A stretch of DNA of 64,000 nt from Prostheceraeus crozeri (Eukaryota; Platyhelminthes; Polycladida; Euryleptidae), in contig CAJQUW010007128.1 in NCBI GenBank assembly GCA_907163375.1, forward strand, positions 42,761 to 106,760. Direction: 5' to 3'. Positions 22,211-39,977 of the stretch are shown in pieces (position 1 is the stretch's first letter; every line of letters begins with the position of its first letter). Under the pieces are notes generated by a model. The model saw only the letters and a program-made list of their open reading frames with translations. It was not told where the DNA came from and did no database searches. A program made the translations under genes and the position numbers.

Positions 22211-22222
22211 TGATGTTATTGT

Positions 22223-22270
22223 CCAATGAGGATCATCATCCAATGAGAATCAAGCATTTCTTTATAAATA
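22223..22270 (+). promoter_or_regulatory. Pol II promoter: two CCAAT boxes and TATA box
   Basis: CCAAT at 22,223-22,227 and 22,240-22,244, both followed by GAG/GAGAA, and TATAAATA at 22,263-22,270. The ATG of the spliced gene is ~105 bases downstream. The arrangement is a textbook strong Pol II promoter just inside the left TIR. Confidence 0.75.
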
Positions 22271-22372
22271 GCGAGCCTTCCACAGTGAGAATCATTCCAT
22301 CGTTGAATCACACGAGTGACGGACGCACATTTTCTCTCTCTCTCTAGTTCCCTGTTCTATTATCCAACTAAA

Positions 22373-23148
22373 ATGGTAAGTCGCTACTTCCCTCCCTCTC
22401 GTCCCTTGAACGTAAACTTAATACAATCTTTTTTCATTTTCAGGCATCTACTCCATCTGCTGCACTAGTAGGACAAAATGGCGCTCAAACGTTACAAGGT
22501 TCGCTACGGTCAGATCATCTACAACTGAGGCCAGTGGAAGAAACATCCAAGGTACATAATCCTACACCGCTACAGCGTAAATTTAAACAAGCCTTGCGTT
22601 ATGATGATCATAGCGTAGTACTCCAAACGGGAATGCTCCCTTCCACGGATGTCAAGATAATGCACAATCAGTATGGGGACTACATACTGATCCCCGTGAG
22701 TCCGTACATTCGCCACCAACTTGATATTATTGAGGAGTACGTGACATTAAATATGGACATTCCTACTCCTCTTGCTCAAGAGTGGAAGGCGAGAGATGAC
22801 AAGGATACTCCCTATAGAAAGATTTGGGATGGTAATCACATTTGCCTACCGGTATCACATTGGTGTACTTACTATAAGAAGGATGGAGATCATTCAATAC
22901 CCATCAGATGTGATGAGCTCGGAGAAGGTACTTGGGATATCCTTTTCAAAGTGAATGGGCTATATTATGGTCGACACAAGGATAATAAAATAGCCTCTCT
23001 CTCCATGCATATGGAATCCATCCTATATATTCCAAAACCACCCAACGTGGACGACATAATTGATCAAATCCTTAACAGCAGTGGTACGAAGCGCAAGTCG
23101 GAGAAGAATGCTGCATCAAAACGCAAATCAAAGAAGGAGAATTACTAG
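22373..23148 (+). CDS. Spliced TIR-proximal early-type protein, 235 aa
   Basis: Exon 1 contributes only the ATG (22,373-22,375). A 68-bp intron runs from GTAAGT at 22,376 to CAG at 22,443, and exon 2 runs 22,444-23,148 and is open throughout in the joined phase. The N-terminal ~30 residues are Ser/Ala/Gln-rich. The centre is a mixed alpha/beta domain of unknown family with Trp/Tyr/His-rich segments. The C-terminal ~25 residues are a Lys-rich nuclear-localisation-like tail (KRKSEKNAASKRKSKK). Promoter position suggests an early gene. A DNA-binding role is a guess from the basic tail. Confidence 0.7.
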
Positions 23149-23308
23149 TCCTTTCCTAACTCTACCCTATGACAATTCGCTTATGTGCTTTGAGTGTCGT
23201 AGACGTGGTCTTATTAGATACATTTTACTTCTTCGTTGCCATCATATCATTTGTGTATTTTGTCGTGAAAAGCATCGATGTAATTCTTCATTTTGTAATA
23301 TGTTATAG
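23060..23308 (+). CDS. Small RING-finger-like protein
   Basis: The C-terminal 40 residues read CFECRRRG...RCHHIICVFC...C....C, that is C-x2-C...C-x-H-x2-C-x2-C, a RING pattern. The 5' part overlaps the preceding gene in another frame, so the true start is probably a later Met (near 23,105 or 23,183) or a spliced exon. RING proteins act as ubiquitin ligases. A viral modulator of host proteins is inference. Confidence 0.4.
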   Translation: MIKSLTAVVRSASRRRMLHQNANQRRRITSPFLTLPYDNSLMCFECRRRGLIRYILLLRCHHIICVFCREKHRCNSSFCNML

Positions 23309-23360
23309 AACGTTTCCTTAGATGTGTAAATTTCCGTTTTAGGCTTCTATCATCATTTTT

Positions 23361-23891
23361 ATGGATTGTGAGGGTGAACCTGTACAGGAGCTCAGTGCTA
23401 TTGCTATGAACAATTGGACATATCAGATTGTTAGTGTCTATCATCAACATGCCAACTGCGATCCCAATGTTGATCAATGGGCGAGAAAACACATTCATGG
23501 ACTTAATCTGAAATATTTGCAAGACTATGGCTTTTCTTGTGAAAGTGCTCTTCTTATTGACTTTAAACGATGGTTAGCTGCTTTCAATGTTATACGCATC
23601 TTTTGTAATAATCCTGGTAAGGAGAGGAAAGTATTTCCCAATCTAATCATTGATGATATTTTGCTCCCGCCTTGGGATAGTAGAGTGAATCAACACTACC
23701 ATGAAGTCACGAAACGTTTTAAGGATTTGTGTGTTCCTATTTTGTCTGTTCCTTGTAGTAGCTACGTTCATAACCAATGCTTCTTTCCTCCTTACCTCAA
23801 CACTGCCAAAGTCCTGTATGGTTATCATTGCTCGCTGTATGATAGTTATCAGCTGTATCTATTTTATCTCTTTCAAACCATTGATTTATAA
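23361..23891 (+). CDS. DEDD (DnaQ-like) 3'-5' exonuclease-like protein, 176 aa
   Basis: From ATG 23,361 the protein opens with MDCEGEPVQELSAI, a D-x-E Exo I-type motif right at the N-terminus, followed by an IVSVYHQH strand, an WARKHIHGLN segment and a later FKRWL...FCNNP segment that fits Exo II. A candidate Exo III (H..C.PYLNT region) is weaker. A splice acceptor-like TTTTAG lies 18 bases before the ATG. It may be proofreading or RNA/DNA processing, separate from the polymerase's own exonuclease. Confidence 0.5.
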   Translation: MDCEGEPVQELSAIAMNNWTYQIVSVYHQHANCDPNVDQWARKHIHGLNLKYLQDYGFSCESALLIDFKRWLAAFNVIRIFCNNPGKERKVFPNLIIDDILLPPWDSRVNQHYHEVTKRFKDLCVPILSVPCSSYVHNQCFFPPYLNTAKVLYGYHCSLYDSYQLYLFYLFQTIDL

Positions 23892-23978
23892 TGCATGCTT
23901 GTTACCGTTATTCAATAAATGTTACTATGAGAAGAGTTGTTGTTTTCATGCAATGGATGGGTTAGATAAAGGGCGATC

Positions 23979-24388
23979 ATGTCTTTCTCAAACGACTGCG
24001 GAACATTACGTTTTCATAGGCAAAGTTTAAAAGGAGCTGTTCAAGATTATGTGATAAAATTTCATAAAGATGAGACCGACATCGAAGCAGTGGTCGATGA
24101 TGCTAGCACTCTATTTCTAGAATTAATGAATACATTCTCTGATAGCATTATCATGGCGCGATTAGTTGCGAAAATTAAGTTTAGTCATTTTGGAAAGGAA
24201 GAGGTGGAAAGTCGCTCTTTCCATTTTGCTTCTTACTCAATGGAAGTGGTAGATCACCCGAAGAATTTTTTAAAAGACATATGATAAAAATTGCTGAACG
24301 TCTTAACGCATTTAACCATCATGGTAGCAGTCTAGTGATTGAAGCGATTTCAGATATTCACATTCAACTTTCCATAAAGAAAAATTGA
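23979..24388 (+). pseudogene. Stand-alone copy of the polymerase N-terminal domain, one frameshift
   Basis: The frame from ATG 23,979 is shifted by one base near 24,260 and continues open to TGA 24,386-24,388. The full region contains a segment of the type KIKFSHF ... SYSMEVVDHP ... FNHHGSSLVIEAI. The polymerase of the same element has the matching KIKYVKI ... ATEVVDYES ... FNERDSGLIFHGIE series about residues 165-235. So the two are paralogous domains. The function is unknown. Terminal-protein or primer handling is a speculative idea. A programmed frameshift is not excluded. Confidence 0.5.
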
Positions 24389-24390
24389 AA

Positions 24391-24714
24391 ATGCAGTGGT
24401 ACTTGATTGTAGCACAACTGGTTTTCGAGCTATGTCTGCTCACTCTCGAAGTATATTCCTTCTGTACATGCGTCTATTATTTAGAAAAGGCTAGCAAATT
24501 CATATCTTCAAAAAGACTTGCTATAGACATCAGTAACGGTGAAACTATGTGTTGCGATGTATGTAAGCGAAAGGATGGAAATGAAAAGCGCATCTTCAAG
24601 AGATGTAAGCATGCCTTTTGTCAACGCTGTTTCATACGTAATTGCATTCAACTTTGCCAATGTAACCACTGTGACATTGCTCATTTCGAGTGTCACTTAT
24701 GTCGCAATAGTTAG
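24391..24714 (+). CDS. Membrane-anchored RING-finger protein, 107 aa
   Basis: ATG 24,391. Residues ~3-28 are hydrophobic (one membrane segment), then a RING-HC domain: CCDVC ... CKHAFCQRC ... C...CNHC ... CHLC. The spacing of Cys/His is complete for two zinc ions. The topology suggests a membrane-bound ubiquitin ligase able to act on host membrane or immune proteins. The target is unknown. It is separated by only a few bases from neighbouring genes. Confidence 0.6.
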   Translation: MQWYLIVAQLVFELCLLTLEVYSFCTCVYYLEKASKFISSKRLAIDISNGETMCCDVCKRKDGNEKRIFKRCKHAFCQRCFIRNCIQLCQCNHCDIAHFECHLCRNS

Positions 24715-24765
24715 TACCTATGCAAATGTGGTAAAGATAGGTTTTAGCAAAGACTAACACGGAAA

Positions 24766-25122
24766 ATGGCGAAACGTAAAATGACGAAACGTAAAAGTCA
24801 AAAGTTTTCTTCAGCCATTCAAGCTCTCCGACGAATGAAAGCAAATCAGCGATACAATGCTATACGACATGCTAACGATAAATTCATTTGTGAAATTATT
24901 TCTCATGTGAGGAAGTTGAGGACGAAGAAATTAGCGCCAAAACAACGAAAGTTACTTAAGCGATATGCTACGAAATTGCGTTTCATCTCCAATCCTAAAG
25001 TCACCCTTCAAAGAAAGAGGAAAACTCTAACACAAAAGGGCGGTTTCCTTTCAGCAATACTTCCAATGATAGCTCCTGCCGTGGGCAACCTATTGGGTAA
25101 TATCTTTGGCTCTAAGCGTTAA
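24766..25122 (+). CDS. Basic virion core-like protein with hydrophobic C-terminus, 118 aa
   Basis: A strongly basic N-terminal two thirds (Lys/Arg > 30%) is followed by a GG-FLSAILPMIAPAVGNLLG segment. This basic plus Gly/Pro-hydrophobic plan is shared with adenovirus core protein X-like proteins of adintoviruses and with the element 1 protein at 4,893-5,348. A role in DNA condensation is inferred. Confidence 0.55.
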   Translation: MAKRKMTKRKSQKFSSAIQALRRMKANQRYNAIRHANDKFICEIISHVRKLRTKKLAPKQRKLLKRYATKLRFISNPKVTLQRKRKTLTQKGGFLSAILPMIAPAVGNLLGNIFGSKR

Positions 25123-25153
25123 TTATGCAAATGTTGAATCTCAAAGTAATAAA

Positions 25154-25771
25154 ATGGATTTCAGACTTCAATGTGATAAAGTTCTGACTGTATCAGGTCC
25201 ATCTCATGCAGGTAAAACTGTTTTCACGCTGAATTTATTGGATAAAAGAAGGGAGTTGTTTAAGGAACCTATCAATCGAGTGATTTGGTGTTATGGTATT
25301 TATCAACCGTCGCTGTTTCAGGAATTGCAAAGTCGCAACTTTATTCGACATGAAGGAATTATTCCAGTGGATAAACTTCAATCTAATGATGTTGTTGTAT
25401 TGGATGATTTATTAAAAGAAAGTAAGAATTCAAAAGATGTTACAGATATGTTCACTCGCGCAGCACACCATAAAAGGTGCTTTATCATCTATATCACACA
25501 AAATTTGTTTCCTGATGGAAAAGAAGCTCGTACACGAAACCTGAATACACACTATTATGCTATTTTCAAGAATCCGCGAGATAAAAGTCAATTTGAAATT
25601 TTAGCGCGACAAGTTGCACCCAGAGGATCAAAAGCCTTAATTGAAATTTTTCAAGCAGCTACTGAAAAACCATACGGTTACTTATTCATTGACTTTACGC
25701 AAGAGTGTCCGGAAGAATTTAGATTTCGAAGTGATATTTTGAAAACTCCCATGATTATCTACAAACTATGA
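25154..25771 (+). CDS. DNA-packaging ATPase
   Basis: Walker A GPSHAGKT at residues 15-22, Walker B DVVVLDD at ~79-85, then a TRAAHHKRCFIIYITQNLF segment with the sensor Gln. Start chosen at ATG 25,154. An upstream ATG at 25,106 would add 16 residues but overlaps the preceding gene. The length (205 aa) is normal for Polinton/adintovirus packaging ATPases. The stop overlaps the next ATG (ATGA-type at 25,768-25,771). Confidence 0.85.
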   Translation: MDFRLQCDKVLTVSGPSHAGKTVFTLNLLDKRRELFKEPINRVIWCYGIYQPSLFQELQSRNFIRHEGIIPVDKLQSNDVVVLDDLLKESKNSKDVTDMFTRAAHHKRCFIIYITQNLFPDGKEARTRNLNTHYYAIFKNPRDKSQFEILARQVAPRGSKALIEIFQAATEKPYGYLFIDFTQECPEEFRFRSDILKTPMIIYKL

Positions 25772-26460
25772 GTTCTTATTCTCGCATGATTGTTATTCCT
25801 CAGGATGAATATGTACAATTGACTGCCATGCAGCAAGTAAAGCAACCTCTTGCAAATCAAATGTATAGGAAAGAAATAGATTATCAGCAAAATGTTCACA
25901 TCAAAGATCCACATCGTGCTGTATTATTACAATCGGAAACTGTTGAGCAATTGAAAAACTTGAAGAATAAGATGCGTGACTCTGTATCGACTGCTACACC
26001 TTTAGCATCTCGCGCACATGCCATATCTCTTTTCAACAGTATTGAACCCCATCTCAATGTAAATGATAGAGGAGAAATCATTACAGATGAAAATAAAGTG
26101 ATTGATGCTTCACGTTATGAAGACTTGATTCAGTATGCGACACGTAGAAAGCGCCGTCAGGGCTATGTTCCACCTGGTTGGTCATACTTTCTTAAACTAT
26201 TGAAAAAGCATAATGTACCAAAATTTGCTTTAAATAATGAGACATTGAAAGAACTTGATTCAACAGTGGCTACTACTCCAATGCTTCAGGCGATGAAAAT
26301 GCCAACAAATTGGTTTAAGACGTCACCTGCTACATCCCCTCCCACACTCACTAAGCAAACAAGAGGAAGAACTCGACGTAGATCTACATCGCCACTAAAA
26401 CTGGTAAAAGGAAAACGTAAAACAGCTCCTCCTAGGAAATACATGTTCTCAGACTATTAA
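25768..26460 (+). CDS. Conserved structural-block protein, 230 aa, unknown function
   Basis: It overlaps the ATPase stop by 4 bases. The N-terminal half is helical with an IP..EY..L start. The middle has DASRYEDLIQYATRRKRR and PGWSYFLKLLKKHNVP. The C-terminal ~50 residues are Pro/Thr/Arg-rich and very basic (TRGRTRRRSTSP...KGKRK). No enzyme motif. Position between ATPase and integrase and the basic tail suggest a virion DNA-contacting protein. Not recognised with certainty. Confidence 0.55.
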   Translation: MSSYSRMIVIPQDEYVQLTAMQQVKQPLANQMYRKEIDYQQNVHIKDPHRAVLLQSETVEQLKNLKNKMRDSVSTATPLASRAHAISLFNSIEPHLNVNDRGEIITDENKVIDASRYEDLIQYATRRKRRQGYVPPGWSYFLKLLKKHNVPKFALNNETLKELDSTVATTPMLQAMKMPTNWFKTSPATSPPTLTKQTRGRTRRRSTSPLKLVKGKRKTAPPRKYMFSDY

Positions 26461-26461
26461 T

Positions 26462-26677
26462 ATGAAGCAGATGTGTTGCTTGCCATGTAATGAGCCGCCA
26501 GAGGTGAATGTCGTTGTCACTTGCACTTGCTGCGCCAGCTCTCATAATGAAACCCCTAAGCAATGTGAACACGATCGCAAAACCGCTAAAGCTAAATGCT
26601 GCAGTTGTTGTAAATGTAGAAAGGCAAGAAAACAAAAAGATGAGAAGGAGGAAAAAGAGTCAGTCGTCTTCGACTGA
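26462..26677 (+). CDS. Cys-rich microprotein, 71 aa
   Basis: Begins 2 bases after the preceding stop. It contains 14 cysteines in pairs (CC, CTCC, CCSCCKC) in the first 58 residues, then a Lys/Glu tail. It overlaps the start of integrase by 38 bases in another frame. No hydrophobic signal. The clusters could bind zinc or form disulfides. Its placement without a gap supports it being real. Family unknown. Confidence 0.4.
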   Translation: MKQMCCLPCNEPPEVNVVVTCTCCASSHNETPKQCEHDRKTAKAKCCSCCKCRKARKQKDEKEEKESVVFD

Positions 26678-27728
26678 ACGTTTGAAGTCAATCTATTATG
26701 ATGTAAAACATCCGGCAGGATTTGCATCTATCAAGAAATTATCAAAAGCGAGTGGTCTTCCACAATCACAAGTGAAACGATGGTTAAAGGGTCAGGCTAC
26801 CTATACACTCCACAAACAAGCGAAAAAGAAGTACCGCACCCGCCATTATATTGTTCATGACATCGATGAACAGTGGCAAGCAGATTTGTGTGATGTTGCC
26901 TCCATTTCAAAACATAACTCGGGCAATAATTTTATTTTAACCGTCATTGATATTTTCTCGCGTTATGCGTGGGCTCAACCTTTAAAAACTAAAGAAGGGA
27001 AAGGAGTAGCAAAAGCATTCCAAACAATTTTTCGAGAAGGTCGCATTCCAAAAAGAATTCAGAGTGATCAAGGAAAAGAGTTTGAAAATCAGCATGTGAC
27101 AAGATTATTTGAGAGGCATGACATTGAGTTGTTTAGTGTAAAGAGTGCTTATAAAGCTGCACTCGTTGAACGTTTTAATCGCACATTAAAAAATCGCTTG
27201 TGGCGACATTTTACTGCCAACTTGACACAAAATTGGACAAAGGTTCTACAAGATACACTCCATGCCTACAATCACTCTATCCATCGTTCTATTGGACTTA
27301 GACCAGTAGATGTAAATGCTGACAATGTAGATAAAGTGCGCGAATCATTCCAACGTAAACGCGCTCATGTGAAAAGTGATGTGAAAATTGGTGCTAAAGT
27401 TCGTATCTCAAAAGTGAAAAGTGTTTTTGCTAAAGGGTACCTTCCGAATTGGACAGAGGAGGTATTTACAGTATCAAGGATTAATCAAAAAGACTCTCCG
27501 ACCTCCTACAAGTTGAAAGATTACGATAATGAAGAAATTGAGGGTAGCTTTTACCGCGATGAGATTGAGGTAGTCACTGAAAGTGAAACATATTTGGTAG
27601 AGAAAATCATTCGATGTAAAAAACGGCAAGGTGAAGAATGGTGTCTTGTTAAATGGACTGGTTATCCTTCAAGTATGAACTCTTGGATGCGTCGTGCCGA
27701 CATCTTTCATCTAAGTGATCGACAGTGA
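26640..27728 (+). CDS. Retrovirus-like integrase with C-terminal chromodomain, 362 aa
   Basis: Inserts the element into host DNA. Start taken at ATG 26,640, since upstream sequence is occupied by the Cys-rich frame. The N-terminal helix-turn-helix-like region (~residues 25-50) replaces the usual HHCC. Catalytic residues D82 (QADLCD), D143 (QSDQGKEFEN) and E177 (AALVERFN) have D,D-33-E spacing. An SH3-like KIGAKVRI...WTEEVFTV segment is at ~257-290. A chromodomain (YLVEKIIRCKK...WCLVKWTGYP..MNSWM) ends the protein. All key residues are present. The chromodomain may steer integration to marked chromatin. Confidence 0.88.
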   Translation: MRRRKKSQSSSTERLKSIYYDVKHPAGFASIKKLSKASGLPQSQVKRWLKGQATYTLHKQAKKKYRTRHYIVHDIDEQWQADLCDVASISKHNSGNNFILTVIDIFSRYAWAQPLKTKEGKGVAKAFQTIFREGRIPKRIQSDQGKEFENQHVTRLFERHDIELFSVKSAYKAALVERFNRTLKNRLWRHFTANLTQNWTKVLQDTLHAYNHSIHRSIGLRPVDVNADNVDKVRESFQRKRAHVKSDVKIGAKVRISKVKSVFAKGYLPNWTEEVFTVSRINQKDSPTSYKLKDYDNEEIEGSFYRDEIEVVTESETYLVEKIIRCKKRQGEEWCLVKWTGYPSSMNSWMRRADIFHLSDRQ

Positions 27729-27769
27729 TTCATGCAAAGTTGTAACTAACAATGTTTAGGGTTTGAGCT

Positions 27770-28225
27770 ATGAATCCAACTGCCTCATTTTATTCACGAC
27801 CCTCCTATGTAAGTGGTGGAGGACAAATTTACATCGGCGCTCGCCGCCAACGTGGAGGTAGCATACTTGGTGCACTGAAATCTGTTGTAGCACCTCTCAT
27901 ATCCAATGTCGGTAGATCTTTAAAACGAAATGTTTTAAGTAATGCCGTTGGCTTTGCTGGTGATGTTGCTAGTGATCTTTCCAGAGGTAGAAGTTTTAAG
28001 AGCAGTTTGTTGAATCGTGGGAAGGAACGCGGTTTAAAAACATTGAAGAAGACCTTTGCTGGTGTTACTCAAGGAAAGAAATCACCTAAACGAATGAAAA
28101 AAGGAAGGAGGAAACATCGCGGAGCTGGTAAGGTGCGATCTTCAGTCAAAAGGCATTCACGCAAACGTCGTAGAGGCTCTAATCATTCATCAGGCGCTAA
28201 ACGACGACGCTGCTATAACTTCTAA
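27770..28225 (+). CDS. Basic core protein (adenovirus X/mu-like), 151 aa
   Basis: The N-terminal ~30 residues are Gly/Tyr-rich. A RQRGGSILGALKSVVAPLI segment starts an amphipathic region, and the last ~50 residues are extremely basic (KRMKKGRRKHRGAG, SRKRRRG). It directly precedes the capsid gene. The composition fits a protein that packs DNA in the virion. Family by analogy. Confidence 0.6.
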   Translation: MNPTASFYSRPSYVSGGGQIYIGARRQRGGSILGALKSVVAPLISNVGRSLKRNVLSNAVGFAGDVASDLSRGRSFKSSLLNRGKERGLKTLKKTFAGVTQGKKSPKRMKKGRRKHRGAGKVRSSVKRHSRKRRRGSNHSSGAKRRRCYNF

Positions 28226-28227
28226 TC

Positions 28228-29505
28228 ATGGAGTGTAAAACTTCCGGTTTTTGTTTGTTTGATCAACAAGCCATACAGACAGATATTCTTAGTTCAAGTA
28301 TTGTAGATTATCATCCTCGAACAGCTGAGAATGCTGGCCCCATTGAATTTGTTATTCCTGGTGGTAGTGATGACTACATAGATTTGAGTTATGCGATGCT
28401 TGATTTGAGGTTTAGAATTCAGCAAGCAGATGGAACTGCTATTGACGATGCACATAAAGTTGGACTGAACAATTTACCATTGACTACATTACTTCGCGAT
28501 GTTTCTCTAACGATTGGAGAGCAGCAGGTGGAAGGTGGTCAAAGCGATTATCCCTATAAATCATATTTCAATCATGTATCACAGTTTCATCCAGCAGCAC
28601 AAAAAAGTCATATGGAAGCCATGGGATGGTATAGAGATGAAGCAGGAAAATTTGATGTTGAAACAAACAGTGGCTTTGTAAAGCGATCTGCTATGATTAA
28701 AGATAGTAAAGTATGTCAGCTATATGGTCCGCTGAATTTAGACTTCTTTAGACAGTCAAAGTTTTTACTGTGTAATACCAGCATGCGACTCAAGCTGACA
28801 TTGAATAAGCCTGAATTTGCGCTGAATGCATTTGCTAAAGTTGACAATTTTAGAATTCATGTGGAAGATATTGCACTTTACATTCGTCGAGTAGTACCGA
28901 ATCCAAGTGTCATTAGAGGGCATGCTGAAGGCCTTAACCGCCAAAATGCCATTTACCCCGTTCAGCATACAAAGCTTCTCACCTTTACAATTCCGAAAGA
29001 TCAAAAGAGTTTCATGAAAGATGGCCTCTTTCCATCGGAAGCACCGAAGCTCCTCATGGTGGCAATGGTTGAAAATGATGCATTTAATGGTAATATAAAG
29101 AAGAATCCTTTCAATTTTAAACACAATCAGTTAAGTGAAATTGCTTTACGTGTAAATGGTGTGAGTCATCCTGGTCCACCCTACAAACCAGATTTTGCTG
29201 CGGATCAATTTATGCGCAGTTATGTTGATTTTATGGATGTCTTTGGCTTTTACAATACGGATGACACCAACGGACTTACTATGAAAGAGTTTAAGAGTGG
29301 ATATACTATTTATGCATTTGATTTGACTGCTGACAGCGATATTAGTGCACCCTATCGTCAAGCGAACGTGCCTCATAATATTCGTTTGGATTTGACGTTC
29401 AAAAGAACACTACCTGAGACGATCAATGTATTAATTTATGCAGTCTTCGATTCAAATATTGAAATTACAAAGTATCGTGACGTGATTCTTCAGTATAATC
29501 GTTAA
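28228..29505 (+). CDS. Major capsid protein (double jelly-roll; F54H12.2-like), 425 aa
   Basis: Intact from ATG 28,228. It starts with a DQQAIQTDILSS-type segment, has the IPGGSDDYIDLS core, a TTLLRDVSLTIGEQQV...YPYKSYF segment, and ends in the IYAVFDSNIEITKYRDV strand. These match the family long annotated as F54H12.2-like in nematodes and other animals, now regarded as hexon-like capsid proteins of Polinton relatives. It is distinct from the capsid of element 1. The protease begins at its stop codon. Confidence 0.82.
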   Translation: MECKTSGFCLFDQQAIQTDILSSSIVDYHPRTAENAGPIEFVIPGGSDDYIDLSYAMLDLRFRIQQADGTAIDDAHKVGLNNLPLTTLLRDVSLTIGEQQVEGGQSDYPYKSYFNHVSQFHPAAQKSHMEAMGWYRDEAGKFDVETNSGFVKRSAMIKDSKVCQLYGPLNLDFFRQSKFLLCNTSMRLKLTLNKPEFALNAFAKVDNFRIHVEDIALYIRRVVPNPSVIRGHAEGLNRQNAIYPVQHTKLLTFTIPKDQKSFMKDGLFPSEAPKLLMVAMVENDAFNGNIKKNPFNFKHNQLSEIALRVNGVSHPGPPYKPDFAADQFMRSYVDFMDVFGFYNTDDTNGLTMKEFKSGYTIYAFDLTADSDISAPYRQANVPHNIRLDLTFKRTLPETINVLIYAVFDSNIEITKYRDVILQYNR

Positions 29506-29915
29506 TGAGTTGGTTGACTGCTGACGATATTAAGACTAAAGTGCAGCGTAATGCAGACGAAGCGACGTTGAAAGCTTTCGATAATGTCTATTCACTCGAT
29601 ACCTTACCACCTGCAGTAAATCACTATCCCATCTTTATTGTGCTAAACACTCATTCGCAGAATTTAGGCGGTGAGCATTGGAAAGCGATCTTTATTGGAG
29701 AATACCGACGTGGTGAACTATTTGACTCTCTTGCTCAACCTCCAAATATACCAAAACAGCAGTGGTTGAGAAAACATACGCGTCAATATCAGCGAAATGA
29801 ACGCATACTACAACATCCACTTTCATCAACGTGTGGTGCTTTTGTACTGTACTTCATCTTAAAACGTTTACATGTATCTCGATTTGCATCTGTTATTCAA
29901 AACTTTTCAACATGA
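29505..29915 (+). CDS. Adenain-like cysteine protease, 136 aa
   Basis: The catalytic triad is visible: His58 in GEHWKAIF, Asp74 in ELFDSL, Cys110 in SSTCGAFVLYF. It is shorter than adenovirus protease but normal for this group. The ATG overlaps the capsid stop (TAATG), implying linked expression. It would cleave capsid and core precursors. Confidence 0.82.
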   Translation: MSWLTADDIKTKVQRNADEATLKAFDNVYSLDTLPPAVNHYPIFIVLNTHSQNLGGEHWKAIFIGEYRRGELFDSLAQPPNIPKQQWLRKHTRQYQRNERILQHPLSSTCGAFVLYFILKRLHVSRFASVIQNFST

Positions 29916-29921
29916 TGTTTT

Positions 29922-30467
29922 TTATTTTACAATCCGCTGGGTACGTACATACTCAATGAGATAGTCTAGGACCACATTTGCTTGTACATGAGATTTTAGT
30001 CCAGTAATGATCACTTTACTATTATGAAAGATTGCCACATGCACAGGTAACCAACAACTAATGAGAGCTGCAGGAAAAAGTTCGGGTTCATAACACAAAC
30101 TGTAACTGCTGGTACGAATCTTCAAAAATGATAGACTGTCACTCAATTGAGTAGAGATCACCATATTGTCCACAGTCAGATTCGACATCACACACCTCTC
30201 CCTCTTCCATATCCGACGTAGTAGTCTTTGTAGCTCTAAGCGCATTGACTGCGCCGATAAATGAGAAAGGGCGCCGAGAATCTGTACAGTCCCATTTGGG
30301 AAGAGTTGAAGATTCCGTGAATTGTTCATCTTCACCACTAACATTTGAGGTCGGCCCGGGTAATACTTGCTGTTTGGAAGGTGTTGGTGTAATGTTGTGA
30401 GATCGATTTTGGTGTAGAGTCTGAAGCGACGGAGAATGTTGACGATGGTGTAGCGATGGCGCTTCAT
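29922..30467 (-). CDS. TATA-binding protein (TBP) homologue, 181 aa
   Basis: Two-repeat TBP fold read from ATG 30,467. Repeat 1 (residues ~7-86) runs from TIVNIL through KIDLTTL and LFPNGTVQILGA. Repeat 2 (~99-178) has DNMV, CYEPELFPAALI and IFHNSKVIITG. By knowledge of cellular TBP, four Phe residues intercalate DNA. Here F131 and F147 of repeat 2 and F56 of repeat 1 are kept and the fourth position is Pro40. No N-terminal extension. It was assigned on motifs only. The start was chosen because homology begins there. It would bind promoters and recruit or compete with host TFIID/TFIIB. It sits on the minus strand between protease and penton genes. Confidence 0.75.
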   Translation of the reverse strand: MKRHRYTIVNILRRFRLYTKIDLTTLHQHLPNSKYYPGRPQMLVVKMNNSRNLQLFPNGTVQILGALSHLSAQSMRLELQRLLRRIWKRERCVMSNLTVDNMVISTQLSDSLSFLKIRTSSYSLCYEPELFPAALISCWLPVHVAIFHNSKVIITGLKSHVQANVVLDYLIEYVRTQRIVK

Positions 30468-30789
30468 GATGAAAGAATGAGTAAATTGAGCGATGTACCT
30501 TCCTTTTATACTTTTCCCAACTACCTTGATGAAATGTGAAGTTAGTATGAAGTTGGGAATGATAGAGTTGAATTCGCCGATTGTTGACGCGCAGCCAGAT
30601 GCGATTTCCAATACGTGAATGTCTTTTCATATAGAAGTATTTCAAGTCCTTCATGATATGATGTAGAGATTGAAAATGACGATAAGATAAAGCAAACTCT
30701 CTTCTCACATTTCCAGTTGAATCTTTGAAATAGACGTTTCGATCATGATCCGTTTCAATACGTTGTAGGGAATCTAATTTCCAACTCAT
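30139..30789 (-). CDS. Small paralogous protein A with acidic C-terminal tail; overlaps TBP
   Basis: From ATG 30,789 the first ~108 residues match the neighbouring 30,812-31,168 gene (W-x-LDSLQ-I, GNV-FK, R-F--L--IM-DL-YF, WEKY-R--HRSI). After that the frame stays open for another ~109 codons over the TBP gene in a different frame, ending in an acidic EEGEVCDVESDCG tail. The tail may be real overprinting or chance. The fold might be PC4/p15-like (beta strands then an amphipathic helix), which would fit a transcription cofactor beside TBP, but this is a weak inference. Confidence 0.5.
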   Translation of the reverse strand: MSWKLDSLQRIETDHDRNVYFKDSTGNVRREFALSYRHFQSLHHIMKDLKYFYMKRHSRIGNRIWLRVNNRRIQLYHSQLHTNFTFHQGSWEKYKRKVHRSIYSFFHHEAPSLHHRQHSPSLQTLHQNRSHNITPTPSKQQVLPGPTSNVSGEDEQFTESSTLPKWDCTDSRRPFSFIGAVNALRATKTTTSDMEEGEVCDVESDCGQYGDLYSIE

Positions 30790-30811
30790 GATGTGTGGTA
30801 GTCATGTCTGA

Positions 30812-31168
30812 TTAAGATTTGCATAGTAGGGCGATGAACTCACGACGAATAAATGTCATGATGGAGCGATGTATATATCTTCTATACTTCTCCCAATTGT
30901 ATTTGCGAAATGAGAAACAGTTTGCGGAATGAGAATGGTAGATTTGAATTTCATTTCTGTAATGTTGAAGCCAAACTTGATCACCCAAGGAGATGAATCT
31001 TAATGTTTCAAAATATTCCAAATCCCTCATGATATCATTGAGGTTGACAAATTGTCGCCATGTTAATGTAATTCCTCTTGATGTATGACCATGAGAATTT
31101 TTGAAATGTACGTTTCCATCACGATCAACTCTGATATATTGTAGAGAGTCCAAAATCCAAGTCTTCAT
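30812..31168 (-). CDS. Small paralogous protein B, 118 aa
   Basis: Tandem paralogue of the preceding gene. ATG 31,168 is preferred to 31,180 because the paralogue aligns there. Pattern: W-x-LDSLQYI, GNVHFKNSHG, LTWRQFVNLNDIMRDLEYF, WLQHY, YNWEKYRR. No membrane segment or enzyme motif. Duplication and position suggest DNA- or RNA-binding partners of the TBP homologue; PC4-like fold is possible but unproven. Confidence 0.5.
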   Translation of the reverse strand: MKTWILDSLQYIRVDRDGNVHFKNSHGHTSRGITLTWRQFVNLNDIMRDLEYFETLRFISLGDQVWLQHYRNEIQIYHSHSANCFSFRKYNWEKYRRYIHRSIMTFIRREFIALLCKS

Positions 31169-31203
31169 GATGTTATGCAAAGCCGCAGATCAGCAATATA
31201 AAA

Positions 31204-32601
31204 ATGTCGTTTTATCATATTTTGCTTAGCAATGCGGCTACAAAGAGATTTACTAGTAATCGAGCCGCACTCTTTTCTACTCCCATTGATCATGCACAAC
31301 AGCTAAATGGAAATTGGGAAGTGGGTGTCACTCAACTTGTTTATAGCAACTGTGTCTATACTTTTGATCATGAGGTGATGACTATTAATATGAGACGTAC
31401 AGCTGCTTATCAATGTGAAAAGGGGTGCCGAGTATACATTCCACAGTGGCCAAAGAAAGATCTCTTATCATGCAAAAGGTTTATATATGATTTCTTGAAT
31501 AAAGCGTGTAAACATATTGTCCAATTTACTCCGCACAATGATGATTATAATTATGTACATCATGTAGTTGAGAAAGATTGGATTGTTGGTTTAAGTCCAA
31601 GTTTAAGAAATGATTTAGGTTACCTCGCTAGCGCCTTAACAAGCTATGATAATTTTAACGTTAATTACCACATAAGTGGTCATAAACAGTTAATATATCG
31701 AGAGGAAGCTTATTATGTAGATCTTATTCCAAGAAATGAAAAGACGTTGGTGAAGAAGATTGTGATTAAGCCAAGAAAGACAAACATGACTCCTGAAACA
31801 TTATTGAAGAAATTTAATTATCTCCTTCGAGTTGATGGCAAACAAGTGGCAACATTGACTTATATCAAATCATCTAATCATATTGCAATAAGCAAATTAA
31901 ATGATGATGATCTAGTATTAGTTTGTTCAAAAGATTTTCATCAGTTCTTACGACATCGTTCTGCAGCTGTTCATGGAAAATCTGATATGCAACATTTACC
32001 ATGTGAAAGGTCAAATCAATTTGATACAGAATGGACCGTATCTTTATACAGAAAGTGTGTAGAGCCTTTAGGTGGTATCTTACATGAAACAAGAGTGTTG
32101 ATGCCTCGCATTATTACTTCGGTTAAATTGGTTGTAGATTATTTAAATGAAGTGATTAATGAGCAAAATATTTCATTTTCTGAAAAAGAAGGTACTTTGT
32201 CTCTCACTATAAGTGGAAAAGGTATTGAACTAATTATGGATAAAACTCTAATGGACATTTTGGGTTTTGATCAAAATATCTTTAAAAGTGGCACTGTAAC
32301 CAAAGCTAGCGCAGACATGTCGCTATCGCGTCGTATTAACTATTTTCAGATATATTCCAATATTGGTGAAGATGTACGTGTGGGAGATGTTGAAGCTCCA
32401 TTGCTAGCAATGATACCATACCAGCCAAAAAGCTGCAGTATTTTATCTGAGCATACTTTCAAGAAAGTGCATTATACAAAGCTGAAATCAAACTACATCC
32501 CACAAATTGATATTGCCATTTATGACGATGCTGGTGCGTTGATTCCTTTTCATAAAGATGCTGTGACAAGTATCACACTCCATTTCCGAATGAAGAGTTA
32601 A
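31204..32601 (+). CDS. Penton-like minor capsid protein 1, 465 aa
   Basis: The N-terminus FYHILLSNAAT...FTSNRAALFSTPI...LNGNWEVGVTQLVY and the C-terminus YFQIYSNIGEDVRVGDVEAPLL ... IDIAIYDDAGALIPF...ITLHFR are hallmarks of the vertex protein family of Polintons. The middle ~200 residues add two extra copies of a strand-rich region. It is paralogous to the next gene. Intact. It starts 36 bases after the divergent gene's ATG at 31,168, so a compact bidirectional promoter lies between. Confidence 0.7.
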   Translation: MSFYHILLSNAATKRFTSNRAALFSTPIDHAQQLNGNWEVGVTQLVYSNCVYTFDHEVMTINMRRTAAYQCEKGCRVYIPQWPKKDLLSCKRFIYDFLNKACKHIVQFTPHNDDYNYVHHVVEKDWIVGLSPSLRNDLGYLASALTSYDNFNVNYHISGHKQLIYREEAYYVDLIPRNEKTLVKKIVIKPRKTNMTPETLLKKFNYLLRVDGKQVATLTYIKSSNHIAISKLNDDDLVLVCSKDFHQFLRHRSAAVHGKSDMQHLPCERSNQFDTEWTVSLYRKCVEPLGGILHETRVLMPRIITSVKLVVDYLNEVINEQNISFSEKEGTLSLTISGKGIELIMDKTLMDILGFDQNIFKSGTVTKASADMSLSRRINYFQIYSNIGEDVRVGDVEAPLLAMIPYQPKSCSILSEHTFKKVHYTKLKSNYIPQIDIAIYDDAGALIPFHKDAVTSITLHFRMKS

Positions 32602-32640
32602 TGCAAACGTATGCTAATATATTTTTCCAATGTGAATAAT

Positions 32641-34161
32641 ATGGAAAGTGAAAATAAGGACTCGTTTCTAATCTACTTGCCCAGTAATGCTTCTATGAAT
32701 AAATTTCCCAAAAATAAACCATCAGACTATCGAGTAGAATTAAATCGCCCACTGCATTTAGAAGGTGAATGGGAGGTTGGCGTTTCTAGTATTTGCTATG
32801 ATAGCAATATTCAGAATGTGAATGATTTGGAAGAAATGATATTGACTCCTCGCACCCATGATGGAATAACGATGAATAATGCATTTCACTTCCCATACAA
32901 TTTAACATCAGATGGAAAGTGGAAATATGAATGGATTCAGATAAAATCAGATTCTTATGAACCATTTTGGAATGAGAAAATTATTAAGGCATTCAACAGT
33001 GGTAATACTTCCATCATGAAGAATAAAAATCAGAAAGCTTATGAGTTTACTATCTATCATTGGAGTGGGAGACAGTTCCTCCGCTTTCATTCTTTTACTA
33101 AAGGTCTTACGCTGAGGTTGGATAATGAATTCTATCCACATCTTGGTTTTGGTCATGGACTACATCTAACATCAATTGCTATTGCAAATGTTAAAAAAGT
33201 TTATTCAAATCGAATCAACAAATTTCATTATAGATTTAAAATATTTGATGAAGATGTTGTAGAATGCGAAGAACGCATCATTTTGAAAAAGCGTCGTGTT
33301 CAACCTTTATCACTTATTGAGTTAGTAAAACGATGGAGTGAGACTGTGGGTAAGAAGTATGGAGAGAAAATTATGGCGAACAAAAATAAGTTGGTTATTC
33401 AGAAATATAATGACAAACTTACAGTTTATTTCTCTCCAACCTTGCGTCATTTTGTAAGACATTATACACCTATTATTGGAAGCGGTGTGGTGTATGGTTC
33501 TCATGAATATCACACTAAAGCTGATTCAGTTAATGATGAATGGTGGGTGGACATCTATGGCGATCGCATCAAGAAAATTTACCAGTCTTATGAAGAATCT
33601 AAAGTTGCTATCAATATAATGCCGCGTCTATATCATACAGTTGAAAGCTTCATTCATGTAGTAAATCCTTATATACAACAGAAGTTGAAGCATGTGATGA
33701 AAAGTAAATATGATGTAAAGACACACCACATTTCGTTTTCAATTGAAAATCAACGCGTTGTTCTGAGACTGGGTGATGACATTCAATGTCAATTGAGTAA
33801 AAATTTGAAAAAACTCTTTGGTTTTTCAATGCTACAAACTGTGTTTACTGCTGCGCATACGATTGGTATAGAAACACCAATGACACTTGATAAACATGAA
33901 CAGCACCTTTACATTCAAAGGGATTTGATTCTACCTATTTCTGTTGGTGAGAAAAAAGAATATATTTTACGCGATTTCATTCATGATCAAGACGCTTCAT
34001 ATGGAATAGTCGAGAAGATGTTTGAATCTATTTTCTATCATCCCGTCGTCAAACAAACTATACCCTCTATTGCTATCAAAATTACCAATGGTTTACAAGA
34101 GTGCATCCATGTGAAAGATACTAAATCCCTCGTAACTTTAGTGTTTCGGAAAACAAAGTGA
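32641..34161 (+). CDS. Penton-like minor capsid protein 2, 506 aa
   Basis: ATG 32,641 preferred: the family pattern (DSFLIYLPSNASMNKFP...LHLEGEWEVGVSSICYD) begins there. The same plan as the previous gene, with a matching C-terminal LYIQRDLI...V and LVTLVFRKTK ending. The two probably make different vertices or a hetero-oligomer, or one carries the receptor-binding role. Intact. A polyadenylation signal AATAAA is at 34,256-34,261. Confidence 0.68.
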   Translation: MESENKDSFLIYLPSNASMNKFPKNKPSDYRVELNRPLHLEGEWEVGVSSICYDSNIQNVNDLEEMILTPRTHDGITMNNAFHFPYNLTSDGKWKYEWIQIKSDSYEPFWNEKIIKAFNSGNTSIMKNKNQKAYEFTIYHWSGRQFLRFHSFTKGLTLRLDNEFYPHLGFGHGLHLTSIAIANVKKVYSNRINKFHYRFKIFDEDVVECEERIILKKRRVQPLSLIELVKRWSETVGKKYGEKIMANKNKLVIQKYNDKLTVYFSPTLRHFVRHYTPIIGSGVVYGSHEYHTKADSVNDEWWVDIYGDRIKKIYQSYEESKVAINIMPRLYHTVESFIHVVNPYIQQKLKHVMKSKYDVKTHHISFSIENQRVVLRLGDDIQCQLSKNLKKLFGFSMLQTVFTAAHTIGIETPMTLDKHEQHLYIQRDLILPISVGEKKEYILRDFIHDQDASYGIVEKMFESIFYHPVVKQTIPSIAIKITNGLQECIHVKDTKSLVTLVFRKTK

Positions 34162-34324
34162 AGTCTTTATACAACATTTATTGAAATATGTGCATGAATG
34201 TGAAGCAATAGACTTTATACAACATCCACTGAAAATATATACATGAGCACACTTCAATAAACATTGCTATATACAAAAAGTCTTTTTACTTCGTGAAGGG
34301 TGGAAATATACAGGGATAGGAAAA
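34162..34324. terminator. 3' region with duplicated segment and poly-A signal
   Basis: Two imperfect copies of a ~50-base segment beginning AGTCTTTATACAACAT (34,164) and AGACTTTATACAACAT (34,211), each with nearby ATATATACATGA-type words, then AATAAA at 34,256. It separates the convergent penton and polymerase genes. Confidence 0.45.
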
Positions 34325-34459
34325 ATGTCTTTCAGTGGAAAAGTCATCACATGGGGAATGTACAGATGTGGACACATATTCACAAGGAAAAACAATCTCA
34401 TGCGATACATAAAACAACAATGTTTATCTACAGAAATCAACATCAAAATACTAAGTTAA
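34325..34459 (+). pseudogene. Isolated degenerate zinc finger resembling the polymerase N-terminal finger
   Basis: A 44-codon ATG frame containing CGHIFTRKNNLMRYIKQQC. The polymerase on the other strand begins with CGHIFTRKWDLTRHIKRGVC in its first finger. The first Cys of the CxxC pair is missing and the zinc His is Tyr here, so zinc binding is doubtful. It sits just after the polymerase's 3' end. A relic of duplication or a small decoy protein. Confidence 0.5.
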
Positions 34460-34465
34460 GGATGA

Positions 34466-37400
34466 TTATGCAAAGACGTCTCCTGAATGTGGTAGTGTGG
34501 GTTTAATTCTTTTGGGTGGTGGTATGCCTGTATCAGGATGTCCATGTGGAAGAGATATGTTGTGTTCTAACCAGCACCTCTTATCCTCCCATGCTGAAAG
34601 CGCCCGTTTCCTAAAAGTATGAGTTTTGATCTCATGCGACTTAGATTTTAAGATTGTCATATTGACAAACGTTATATTTTTATTTCTATAGGCTTTCCTG
34701 AAATTCTTATGTTTCATGTTAGAGACCAATGATCTTGATATGCCTTTAGCGCGCTTAATGCTATCATCGCTATCCTTTAATTTCATACTGTACATTTTTG
34801 GACGGAGGAGAATCATTTCAGCTATCTCCTTCCCTGCTGTCTCATCCTTAAAGCAGCCAAGTTTGGCCTTATTTTTGATGGAGTAGAGTGGGTGATCAGT
34901 AGGATAATTTGATGTATCAAAATATCTTTCTAAAGATTTTCCTACTTCATTAAAATTTAAATCTTTTTGAGTGGTAATACCTAAGAAGAAACTATCTGTG
35001 TCACCACCCAACAAACGAACCTCTTTTACGAGAGGACACGGTTTTAGTATTTTATAGAAGAGTTGATACATTTCAAGCTTGGAGTAATCTAGTACAGCTT
35101 GACCAATATAGATGGGTTTGCACAACTCAACTTCAGATTTTATCATTTTAACACCTATAAGGTCCTCATCGATAATGTCTCTATCGATGAATAGAGGTGA
35201 TGAGATCAATTTGTGATACTTTTGATCATCATTAACTAGTTTGTAGTTTACGCGCCTTCTAACATCCTCCATCGTCTTACCAAATAGACTGTTGTTCTTA
35301 TATTTATAAAAATCTTTTTCAAAATTATTTTGGGCCAGTGCACGTTTCTGGCTGTTGCTATCAATATATGGTTTGAGGAAGGCTTTCTGTCTAAATTTAA
35401 TAATGCGGTGAACTCTTTTTAAAATCATGCCCATTTCTAAATAAAATTTTAAGATGCTAAAGTGGACTAGATAGTTTTCCTTATCATACTGGATGAGTAA
35501 AAGTTTGCGGCAAGGCTTATAGTCGGGTTGACCGCATGATTCTAAATCTTTATGAAATTGTTTCATAAAGTCGGAAAACATATCTTTACTCACTTCACCT
35601 GATTCGGGTGCGAGTGGAAAATCTACGGTTTTATGTTTAATATTATTTGGATAGATTAGATCTATCTCAAAATAATATCCCCAATCACCTTCATCTGGAA
35701 TTGCTAGTATGTTAGAAGGGTTGGAGAGATGCTGAATTTCACTATCATCTAACCAGCTAAACTCAGAGTGAGGGAGTGGTTTGGATAGTGAACTACCATA
35801 TAAATTATTTTGGTCATAATACTTAAGATGAGTCTGATCATTACCTACTGTTTCAGATTTTAACCTATGTTTATTTACAAATGTGAGACCACCGCGAATT
35901 CCTCGCTCAAATAAATTATACATCTCTGGATCTTGTAAGAGATGAATGGTCTCACCAGTCATTTTAAAAGCAGACTTAAATGACATGGCTGGCAGACTGA
36001 CAAAGTGGACGGGATCTAACTTATCTTCTTCTAATGCCACTCGTCGAAACTCCTGAAATACATCAGCCAGCAAAAATACATCTAACTTAAGGTAGGCAAT
36101 CATATATTCGCCAAATGTATGGCAGTCAAATTTTATCCATGCATCTTGTGCATGATCATAATCTTCGATCTTACATTCTGCGCCGGTCAAATCATTTTTA
36201 AATTTATCTATGGGCGGAAGAGAAGTCTCGCCGAGTTTACTAATCGCATCAAAATATGCATATGGAAAGACTCCTTTCCGTGTGATGACTTCATCGGTTA
36301 GATTTGGATATTGTTTCTTAAGATTTTGTGTTAGTGGAAGAGACTTTAGATTTTGTACGAGAGAGGCCAGTGATGCAGTCATAAATTGGTAGGAATCTAA
36401 AAATTTTATATCAAAATAGACCGTCTTATTTTCTTTAGTTTTATCGACATGCACTTTTGCTGTCATGGCCATAAACTTCTCTCTCGTTTGTGCTATTACA
36501 TCAAGCTTCCACTCTTTCATTTGACCTAAACCTCCTTTTATTATCATATGGCTGTCGTAGCCCTTGAAATTATGGAAAATGACGGGTAAAGTACGCCGTT
36601 TCATCCTAAGTGAAAAATTGCATTTTGAACATAGTGCGTTTCTAAATTTACCATTGATGTGATCATGGTCGCGCACTTTCTTAATCTTATCATCGTCAAA
36701 TGTTTTACTACATTTGGGGCAAACGTTGCAACTATCAAATTTTGCTTGATCATCTGCTGTCATATGCAATGATCTGCGATAGAGTTCACCATCATACTTT
36801 TGTTGAAATTTTACAGCCTGTTCGAGGAATTGTAGGAATTGGTAAATACAATCCTCACCTTGCCAGACGCGCATTTTATTTTGCCTACTCCTAAAGTGAT
36901 CATGCCATACTTCATAGCAGGAAATGGCTGCTGGTCGATGGATGTTATCATCGATATAACATTCGATGTCAGCATAGATGACACGAAGAGGACTTAGTTC
37001 ATCACCATTCTCTCTATATGAAAACTCCTTATCTTTGGGCATGCGCTCCATTTGTAGTTTACCTCGCTTACACCATTCGTAATGAGTTTCAAATTTAGTT
37101 TTCCTCCTAAAGTGGCGAATACATCTGTCGCAGTAATATAACTCTCTCCTAGAGTTTTCTAAGTGGTGGTATAAGCGAGAGATTTTGGGAATACCGCAGT
37201 AGTGCCATTCCTCACTATCATCCTGTTTTACTAATAACAGGTTTACTGTACGTTCATAACAACTCGAACGCGAGTTGTAGCGCACACCCTTCAATCCCTT
37301 TTCCCAAACATGGAGAACTATTTTAATATTGTTCAATTTTTCAAATTTTTCTATATCTTTAATTTTCATATCGTCACTATTACAGTCATCGAAGTTTAAT

Positions 37401-38437
37401 TCATTCTCCCACTGCCTATAGCTATATGTGCGATTTCGATTCGCATTGATGTCATTATAGTGGAGAATGGAGAGGACAGCATATTTAAAACATTGCGATT
37501 CGCAATCGACATTGATGACTGCTGTTTTGTTTTTTAAATTTTTTGGAAGTTTAAAGGAGCCTCGACCACTATGATTTCCTAATAAACTGATTTTAAATAA
37601 GGCGGACTCAATGCCGTGAAAAATGAGACCGCTATCGCGCTCGTTAAATTTATCAATATTTAATTTTAATCCTTGGATGTGAAAATTTATCCAAGACTCA
37701 TAGTCTACAACCTCGGTTGCAGGAGAGGAGGGTATGTGAAACTCCAACCTCTCTATTATTTGTCCGGTATGGTGGTCGATTTTTACATATTTTATTTTAA
37801 GATAGATGAGCGCCTTCATCCTAAAATTGTCTAAATTGTTGAAGAGCGCTTCTATCAATGATGAATTTTGATGAAACCATTCCTCAAAGTTAGCAATGGT
37901 TTCTGAGGAGTCCATCTGGTAGTTCCTCACTAAATTATTTATGGACACTTCAGTGAGTCGGATAGAGGAGGTACCGTTGGTGTAGGCATCGTTCGTGTGT
38001 GTATGTTGAAGTCTGTGCGGAGATAGTTCAAAACGTGTCTCGAAAGACTGAGCGCACAAGTCGCAAGAAAAGGAGACGACGTTAACAGAATCATCCCCAC
38101 CTTCGGAGATTGATGCCGGCTTAGGTCGACAAACACCTCGCTTGATGTGTCGGGTGAGATCCCATTTCCTCGTGAAGATGTGCCCACAGTCAGCACATTC
38201 CCACTCGTTGCCATGCCGCGACAGTTCTGAGGTGGAACTCACATCACCTGAAAGAGAAATCATTCTATCATCTCTGTTCAAGCCTCAGTGTATTGTTACA
38301 ACCTACCTTGACTCAATAACTCTAAACTTTCCTCGAGAAGGGAGGGCGTTGGTGATGAAGTTGATGCCTGAAATTGAGGAAGATGCTATTAACCACACGT
38401 TTGAGGGAGATGAGAGAGGAAATCTTCAACTTACCAT
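34466..38437 (-). CDS. polB: DNA polymerase B with N-terminal zinc fingers and HNH/EndoVII insert, spliced, ~1,281 aa
   Basis: Three exons on the minus strand: ATG only (38,435-38,437), intron 38,434-38,368, exon 38,367-38,307, intron 38,306-38,248, exon 38,247-34,466. All junctions are GT...AG and the joined frame is open. Order: C2HC finger (~residue 39-61), C2H2 finger (~84), a domain shared with the gene at 23,979 (~140-240), Exo I YADIE (~447), a Cys4/HDH EndoVII-HNH-like insert (CPKC...VRDHDHINGKFRNALCSKC, ~527-563), Exo II FHNFKGYDSH (~580), Exo III LKLDVF (~742), A DQNNLYG (~832), B NNSLFGK (~1007), C GDTDS (~1103). All catalytic residues are present. Confidence 0.85.
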
Positions 38438-38562
38438 TTCAACGAAATCAAGTTTAAGGTTGATACTTCAACAAGATAGAGACTTCACTCAAATTTGGAA
38501 TTCACGAGATAGCAGTTCACTTGTACACCTCAAATAATAACAGAATTCGCTAGAGAACACTT

Positions 38563-38658
38563 CACTTATACGTCACAAAGACAGAGTGAAATGATACGGA
38601 TGTCACTTTACATATATACTTTCATATTCATCATTCATTGGCTGCTCATTCTGATTGG
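38563..38658 (-). promoter_or_regulatory. Polymerase promoter: TATA box and two CCAAT boxes
   Basis: On the minus strand TATAAGTG (38,570-38,563) lies ~125 bases before the polymerase ATG, immediately preceded by a TGACGT core. Two ATTGG words at 38,637-38,641 and 38,654-38,658 read CCAAT on the minus strand ~70-90 bases further up. The + strand gene at 38,716 starts close by, so the region is probably bidirectional. Confidence 0.6.
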
Positions 38659-38715
38659 CTGCTTGTTGATACTTAAGAATTAGAAAACATTTCAAAGTCA
38701 TTATTCACAGTCAAC

Positions 38716-39165: not shown

Positions 39166-39312
39166 TAAATTTTTATTTCGTATTATCTTTGCTTTCATAC
39201 TGACTTACTTGAACGGGACTTCAGTGGATGATTTAACCATGTATACTTTTTCATTTGGAAATAGTAGCACGCTTAGTCTAACTTGTAAATCTTATAACAT
39301 TTCATATGGGCG

Positions 39313-39510
39313 ATGATGGTAGATGAAATAGTGTTAAATAAAATTAAGATAGCTTACACTTCTGATACAGGGATAGCAATCGACTGCGATCCATGTGTAA
39401 AGAGCTTGTTAGACTACGAAAGAGAGAAGTGTGTTATGTTGCGTGTGGTGCGTGAGTGTCCTCCCATTTCATTCCATTCATCAATTCATCTCATTGATAG
39501 AGACAGGTAG
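39313..39510 (+). CDS. Hypothetical small protein, 65 aa
   Basis: An unrecognised short ATG frame. GACAGGTAGAA at its end could be a splice donor and TTTTAG 40 bases later an acceptor, but the joined frames meet a stop soon. Low certainty. Confidence 0.25.
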   Translation: MMVDEIVLNKIKIAYTSDTGIAIDCDPCVKSLLDYEREKCVMLRVVRECPPISFHSSIHLIDRDR

Positions 39511-39531
39511 AACTCATGGTTCTCATAACGT

Positions 39532-39968: not shown

Positions 39969-39977
39969 AAGAGAAAT

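Follow-up and report, generated by a model that had tools for sequence, protein, structure and literature searches.

A conserved homologue of the TATA-binding protein encoded by a Polinton of the flatworm Prostheceraeus crozeri

Does a virus-like transposon carry a gene for a TATA-binding protein (TBP), and what might such a protein do for the element? This question is raised by a minus-strand frame in a 64-kb stretch of DNA (the window) from the polyclad flatworm Prostheceraeus crozeri, which the original prediction had read as a complete two-repeat TBP saddle encoded in a virus-like transposon. Profile search and structure prediction both recovered a TBP and confirmed this observation: The Pfam family PF00352 matched the 181-residue protein in two stretches with an E-value of 1.2e-19 and a score of 70.4 bits (cut-off 22.9), and the predicted structure is a saddle fold with a pLDDT of 95. 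No second TBP was found in the window, where the next best HMM match had an E-value of 0.33. As read from its sequence, the protein is a TBP homologue and an altered version of the cellular TBP, to which its identity is 20-26%. The features of the locus are collected in Table 1.

Table 1. Features of the TBP-bearing element, in window coordinates
Feature	Position	Strand	Remarks
Polinton/Maverick element, about 22.3 kb	20571..42828	none	between long terminal inverted repeats
TATGCAAA motif	24719..24726	+	upstream of ORF24766
Putative packaging ATPase	25106..25771	+	PF04665 (A32) E 0.022, below cut-off; P-loop GPSHAGKT visible
TATGCAAA motif	25124..25131	+	upstream of ATPase ATG
Integrase with chromodomain	26508..27728	+	PF00665 (rve) 1.2e-10, PF00385 6.2e-07
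CATGCAAA motif	27731..27738	+	upstream of ORF27770/MCP/protease
Putative major capsid protein (MCP), 425 aa	28228..29505	+	from sequence features and position; named by no database
Ulp1/adenovirus-type cysteine protease, weak match	29505..29915	+	PF02902 E 0.0045, PF00770 E 0.04, both below cut-off
TBP gene, 181 aa	29922..30467	-	two TBP repeats, saddle fold
PUR2, C-terminal tail, about 108 codons	30139..30467	-	other frame within TBP gene; open in both families
PUR2, N-terminal PUR/PC4-like part of 216-aa ORF	30466..30789	-	ends at TBP start; 44% identical to PUR1
Initiator-like TCATTC	30475..30480	-	spacing to TATA box equals that of TCATTT at family-2 locus
TATA box TATAAAAG of TBP gene	30503..30510	-	same place in family 2
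PUR1, tandem PUR/PC4-like protein, 118 aa	30815..31168	-
TATGCAAA motif	30818..30825	-	upstream of PUR2
TATGCAAA motif	31174..31181	+	in 35-nt gap PUR1/ORF31204
AATGCAAA motif	32600..32607	+	upstream of ORF32611
Family B DNA polymerase (PolB), by motifs	34466..38281	-	DQNNLYG, NSLFGK, GGDTDSF

The host element of the TBP gene is, in line with its proposed virus-like nature, a Polinton/Maverick: It has long terminal inverted repeats (TIRs), a retroviral-type integrase with a chromodomain, the motifs of PolB, a gene for a putative capsid protein, and low-scoring matches to a protease and an ATPase. The two TIR arms (20571-20960 and 42439-42828, 390 nt each) were given as 100% complementary by the repeat search; compared base by base from the ends, their first mismatch lies at position 213. 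Both flanks share TTCTCGTT in a repetitive site, and no clean 6-bp target-site duplication was found there. The element apparently interrupts an ORF (19812-20336 and 42826-43110) that is gag-like and includes a SCAN domain (PF02023, 5.8e-14). The protein that is presumably the MCP, judged by sequence features and position, gave no Pfam or PDB sequence match; it has 264 homologues in the protein search, and among the best 120 of these an identical protein is present in public contigs. One capsid protein (P0064, 86% identical) is filed under the name of a Pseudomonadota MAG, which probably reflects eukaryotic contamination. The PolB ORF had no Pfam polymerase match, although it did match C2H2 zinc fingers and an endonuclease VII-like domain (PF02945, 4.1e-06); its hhalign comparison with the polymerase piece at 14214-15509 was weak (E 0.025, probability 1.9%). 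Two adjacent ORFs at 31204-34161 (465 and 516 aa, mutually 21% identical) are candidate virion proteins without a Pfam match at E <= 0.1, and a small basic ORF (24766-25122) has a weak, sub-threshold match (PF05829, E 0.0024) to the adenovirus core protein X/mu. No RNA polymerase gene was recognised in the element.

The window contains further Polinton sequence. An older Polinton (227-19118) has ends that repeat in inverted orientation, as four motif contexts of 227-492 are found again at 18853-19118; its ORF 18193-18813 has a counterpart at 520-840 (96% protein identity), the polymerase gene is broken into two ORFs (12045-15509), and 15669-16403 holds an ATPase. No TBP was found within 227-19118. 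A third, fragmented stretch (44480-47787) repeats 15666-18581 at about 75-85% DNA identity, with protein matches.

In order to see which TBP residues are kept, we compared the element protein with its relatives. A protein search returned 61 homologues, 31-76% identical over the alignment and all with a precomputed TBP domain, which fall into two visible subgroups (P0002-P0048 and P0049-P0062). The column counts given here refer to 62 aligned sequences, i.e. these homologues plus the query; where yeast positions are named, they and the contact roles are those of cellular TBP. Two repeats, the saddle, the central asparagine pair (N101 in 62/62; N10 in all 50 non-gap sequences) and the predicted YEPELFP motif are shared with cellular and archaeal TBPs. 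The expectation that three of the four DNA-intercalating phenylalanines are retained and the fourth is proline was also borne out: F56 and F147 are invariant (62/62 each) and F131 occurs in 61/62, whereas P40, the yeast F99 position and first phenylalanine of the N-terminal stirrup, is proline in 58 of the 59 non-gap sequences. The element protein further differs from cellular TBPs at the yeast T124 position (Leu in 56, Met in 4, Phe in 2 sequences), in having no N-terminal domain, and in being encoded by a transposon gene that shares bases with a PUR-like ORF. The TFIIB-contact residues, with the E-x-E-L-F motif, are kept; E129 is found in 62/62, E127 and T155 in 61/62 each. Kinship to TBP in sequence and fold stands, yet with one of the four phenylalanines replaced by proline canonical DNA binding does not follow. 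The conserved contact residues suggest that the protein may bind TATA DNA and TFIIB; the C-terminal half retains the canonical surfaces for both, and the N-terminal half is altered in one consistent way family-wide.

Pattern matches were obtained in viral contigs and in genome contigs; in neither set was a TBP or capsid relative confirmed by tblastn. Co-location of homologues judged by equal record sizes was discarded. It had paired TBP P0002 with PUR P0184 (1771) and, among the best 120 of the 264 MCP rows, PUR P0186 with MCP P0064 (11119) and PUR P0183 with MCP P0063 (12876); a TBP/MCP match at 7106 was no better than chance (1 observed, 0.48 expected).

Within the 2.05-Gb genome including the window, the TBP protein as query yielded at least 150 family-1 copies (the window's own included) among 11872 first-look candidates. 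The best 150 are 97-100% identical, and none has an internal stop; in a second family (query P0021), whose TBP is 44% identical to that of the window, 142 of the 150 best-scored copies are without stops and 8 have one. This intactness is biased upward, because the copy lists were ranked by score. Protease and PUR1 stand on either side of TBP in each of 28 family-1 loci compared, L001 being that of the window itself, and in 8/8 loci with 1.5-kb flanks the MCP is found as well; the same gene thus occupies the same locus in related elements, as anticipated. For family 2, whose copies were ordered by how closely they resemble P0021 and are less biased, piN/piS was 0.39 for TBP (30/30 ungapped, 5 with stops) and 0.53 for the PUR2-like part in 26 ungapped copies (6 with stops). 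The family-1 TBP value of 0.13 was set aside, as those 28 copies had been chosen by TBP score; for genes outside this selection in the same loci, the values were 0.44 (PRO), 0.47 (PUR1), and 0.29 (PUR2), with gapped copies in 2/28 (PRO) and 5/28 (PUR2) and a stop in one PRO copy. The open copies in both ranked lists and the family-2 ratio agree with the codon-level constraint that a maintained gene had been expected to show.

The neighbours of TBP on the same strand are two PUR/PC4-like genes. Assignment of PUR1 to the PUR or PC4 fold rests on VIA-align; PUR1 had no Pfam PC4/PUR match, no Foldseek match at E <= 0.001, and no PDB sequence match to PUR-alpha, PC4 or Whirly. In distinction from these three, the element proteins are of a 118-residue tandem form and occur as two adjacent paralogues, one of which overlaps TBP. 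Synonymous recodings kept the frame of the PUR2 tail open with a frequency of 5e-05 in family 1 and in 0/20000 cases in family 2, where the PUR-like ORF likewise overlaps TBP. A corresponding overlap was traced in 9 of 12 subgroup-1 homologues via an out-of-frame IK at -13/-14 before the start methionine. Judged by the reading frames, TBP and PUR2 are likely a dual-coding pair over about 108 codons of one strand, open in two diverged families.

The element had also been credited with TATA and CCAAT promoters. A TATA box does precede the TBP gene: TATAAAAG starts 43 nt and TCATTC 13 nt before its ATG, and at the family-2 reference locus TATAAAAG and TCATTT are found at equal spacing. The 17-base TATA context is exact in 23/28 family-1 and 22/30 family-2 loci, and the pair of TATA box and initiator, allowing a distance of 21-25 nt, occurs in 24/28 and 24/30 copies, respectively. 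This conservation is confounded, because identical bases encode PUR2; the paralogue PUR1 reads TATAGAAG at the matching bases, and therefore the TATA box is not forced by the protein. Over the element as a whole, TATAAA and CCAAT are unenriched: None of nine TATA/CCAAT-type patterns was enriched at p < 0.05 upstream of 14 genes.

The single enriched word was ATGCAAA, found at -55..-20 of 5/16 ORF starts, an equally high maximum being reached in 1/1000 random placements, with the interval picked after the sites were seen; for -90..0 the values are 6/16 and 3/1000. When 6-mers at -90..0 were assessed, the enrichment was not significant (186/1000 random placements, 0.186). The TATGCAAA-type 8-mer is intact in 124/128 copy-sites; four sites contribute 18-19 of 20 fetched copies each and two sites 27 of 28 loci each, the window's own among them, incomplete rows having been dropped. 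Counted by cells, variation amounts to 4/1024 in the 8-mer and 99/3846 in other gap bases; counted by columns (4/48 vs 30/184), the difference is not significant (p 0.25). At the single family-2 locus read, genes are preceded by neither ATGCAAA nor TATGCAAA; since TBP is present there, TATGCAAA cannot be its only target.

This locus (C2604:276600-292500) comprises a TIR-like block, 86-92% identical to the TIR region of the window, relatives of ORF22534 and ORF23361, a PUR2-like gene, TBP, and a PolB that is 57-62% identical to the window PolB and that this copy has in two separate ORFs. Among its ATG ORFs of at least 90 aa, none matched MCP, protease, integrase or ATPase at E <= 0.01, a reading which decayed genes could escape and which leaves the right end beyond the stretch covered. 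Correspondingly, 0/30 family-2 loci had an MCP or protease within 1.5 kb of TBP at E <= 1e-3. The high-copy family with TBP and PolB (L098, L071, L099) is possibly a satellite of the full element; at L098, two near-identical 140-aa ORFs stand in tandem (5549-5971 and 6106-6528). As TBP is kept where a capsid gene was not seen, it serves beyond late genes or acts in trans. Of the proposal that the protein resets transcription to the element's own late genes, the transcriptional part is in keeping with the retained DNA-bending and TFIIB-contact residues, but a purely late or capsid role is unlikely in view of this one locus.

On balance, it is probable that the Polinton-encoded TBP is an element-specific transcription initiation factor. 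Early on, host TFIID would transcribe the TBP gene from its canonical TATA box and initiator; the product would then bind TATA-like DNA of element genes via its intact C-terminal stirrup and recruit host TFIIB and RNA polymerase II. The PUR/PC4-like proteins may join it as coactivators or as partners in strand separation, so that initiation on element promoters would occur instead of, or less dependent on, host TFIID and its TAFs. Because no RNA polymerase gene was recognised in the element, the TBP would have to use the host polymerase. Several points count against the initiation-factor reading: DNA contact could suffer from the Phe-to-Pro and Thr-to-Leu exchanges, TATA/CCAAT-type patterns are unenriched before the 14 genes, and TATGCAAA is missing before genes at the family-2 locus. 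A more far-reaching version, according to which the altered TBP and the two PUR/PC4-like proteins form a self-contained initiation apparatus with its own promoter class, Pol II being used independently of host TFIID, and kept by a capsid-less satellite family, is rather doubtful.

PUR and PC4 proteins are single-strand binders, and TBP and a PUR-like gene stand beside PolB at the family-2 locus, where no capsid, protease, ATPase or integrase was found; TBP might thus bend the DNA close to the inverted repeats or to an origin and, together with the PUR/PC4-like proteins, help PolB to start replication. The invariant or nearly invariant TFIIB-contact motif would be needless for this purpose, and the window TBP lies 4 kb from PolB with a TATA box of its own, which makes a replication role unlikely. 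Alternatively, TATGCAAA might serve the capsid-side genes as a TATA variant that the protein reads, much as herpesvirus TBP-like proteins read TATT. The placement of ATGCAAA before ORF starts, the near-intact 8-mer and the altered residues central to TBP-DNA contact point in this direction; the column and 6-mer results, the post hoc choice of positions and the lack of the word at the family-2 locus do not, and POU factors would be a simpler reader of ATGCAAAT, the octamer they bind. We regard this possibility as quite unlikely.

About as unlikely is a decoy that ties up TFIIB, TFIIA or host TATA boxes and so reduces transcription of host genes. One half of the DNA-binding surface is systematically altered and identity to cellular TBPs is low, as such a function would permit; however, three phenylalanines and both central asparagines are kept across the whole range of homologues, which is needless for protein-only binding, and a persistent integrated element presumably gains little from host shut-off. 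The conserved DNA-binding face thus disfavours the pure form of the TFIID decoy that had been suggested. Finally, chance resemblance or a decayed passenger gene can be practically dismissed: The eight family-2 copies with a stop are all that favours it, against the Pfam score, the confident fold, the 61 homologues, the open copies of both families (upward bias included) and the family-2 piN/piS ratio.

For the favoured role as an initiation factor, the viral preinitiation complex of herpesviruses is the closest working model. HCMV UL87 is among the TBP-like proteins of beta- and gamma-herpesviruses, which are long proteins; the element TBP is short, plain and recognisable by sequence, and a virus-encoded TBP-like fold used with host Pol II would be common to both. 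According to the part of the source covered, the herpesvirus proteins (EBV BcRF1, MHV-68 ORF24) bind the TATA variant TATT in late promoters, are proposed to initiate a viral preinitiation complex that uses the Pol II of the host, and share about 10% identity with TBP (PMC4893493). In the viral structure search, Ranid herpesvirus 2 ORF75 (E 2.7e-6) and elephant herpesvirus U58 (1.3e-3) ranked behind TBPs of giant viruses (Nucleocytoviricota), which made up many rows. Giant viruses and mirusviruses are likewise DNA viruses encoding a TBP and usually have their own RNA polymerase, in contrast to the TBP-bearing Polinton, where no such gene was recognised. In the portion of PMC10132985 covered, a TBP gene cluster is assigned to 59% of mirusvirus genomes and 0% of Nucleocytoviricota.

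With Polintons/Mavericks and adintoviruses the element shares its TIRs, chromodomain integrase, PolB motifs, weak protease and ATPase matches and putative capsid; a TBP is absent from their descriptions in the literature covered, to which the main adintovirus paper does not belong. In the covered part of PMC10675990, TATA-binding proteins are placed in mirusvirus-like elements, not in Polinton-like ones. No Polinton TBP is described in this paper, PMC12220804, PMC10120064, PMC11071308 or PMC11071296 as far as covered, nor in the open-access literature searched, which for some queries comprised part of the matching papers; to this extent, the original prediction's remark that it knew of no described Polinton TBP was borne out. 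The Polinton TBP is real, conserved and, as far as searched, undescribed, its function being inferred.

Nearly all archaea and eukaryotes have a TBP, and its gene rarely moves. The diverged form on a high-copy transposon, with residue changes shared by two families, amounts to a natural experiment that asks which positions of TBP are needed and whether a preinitiation complex with host Pol II can be assembled by a small DNA element for itself. The finding suggests a route by which Polintons may control their silence or activation in the genome and the timing of their own genes, as well as a source of TBP genes moving between genomes.
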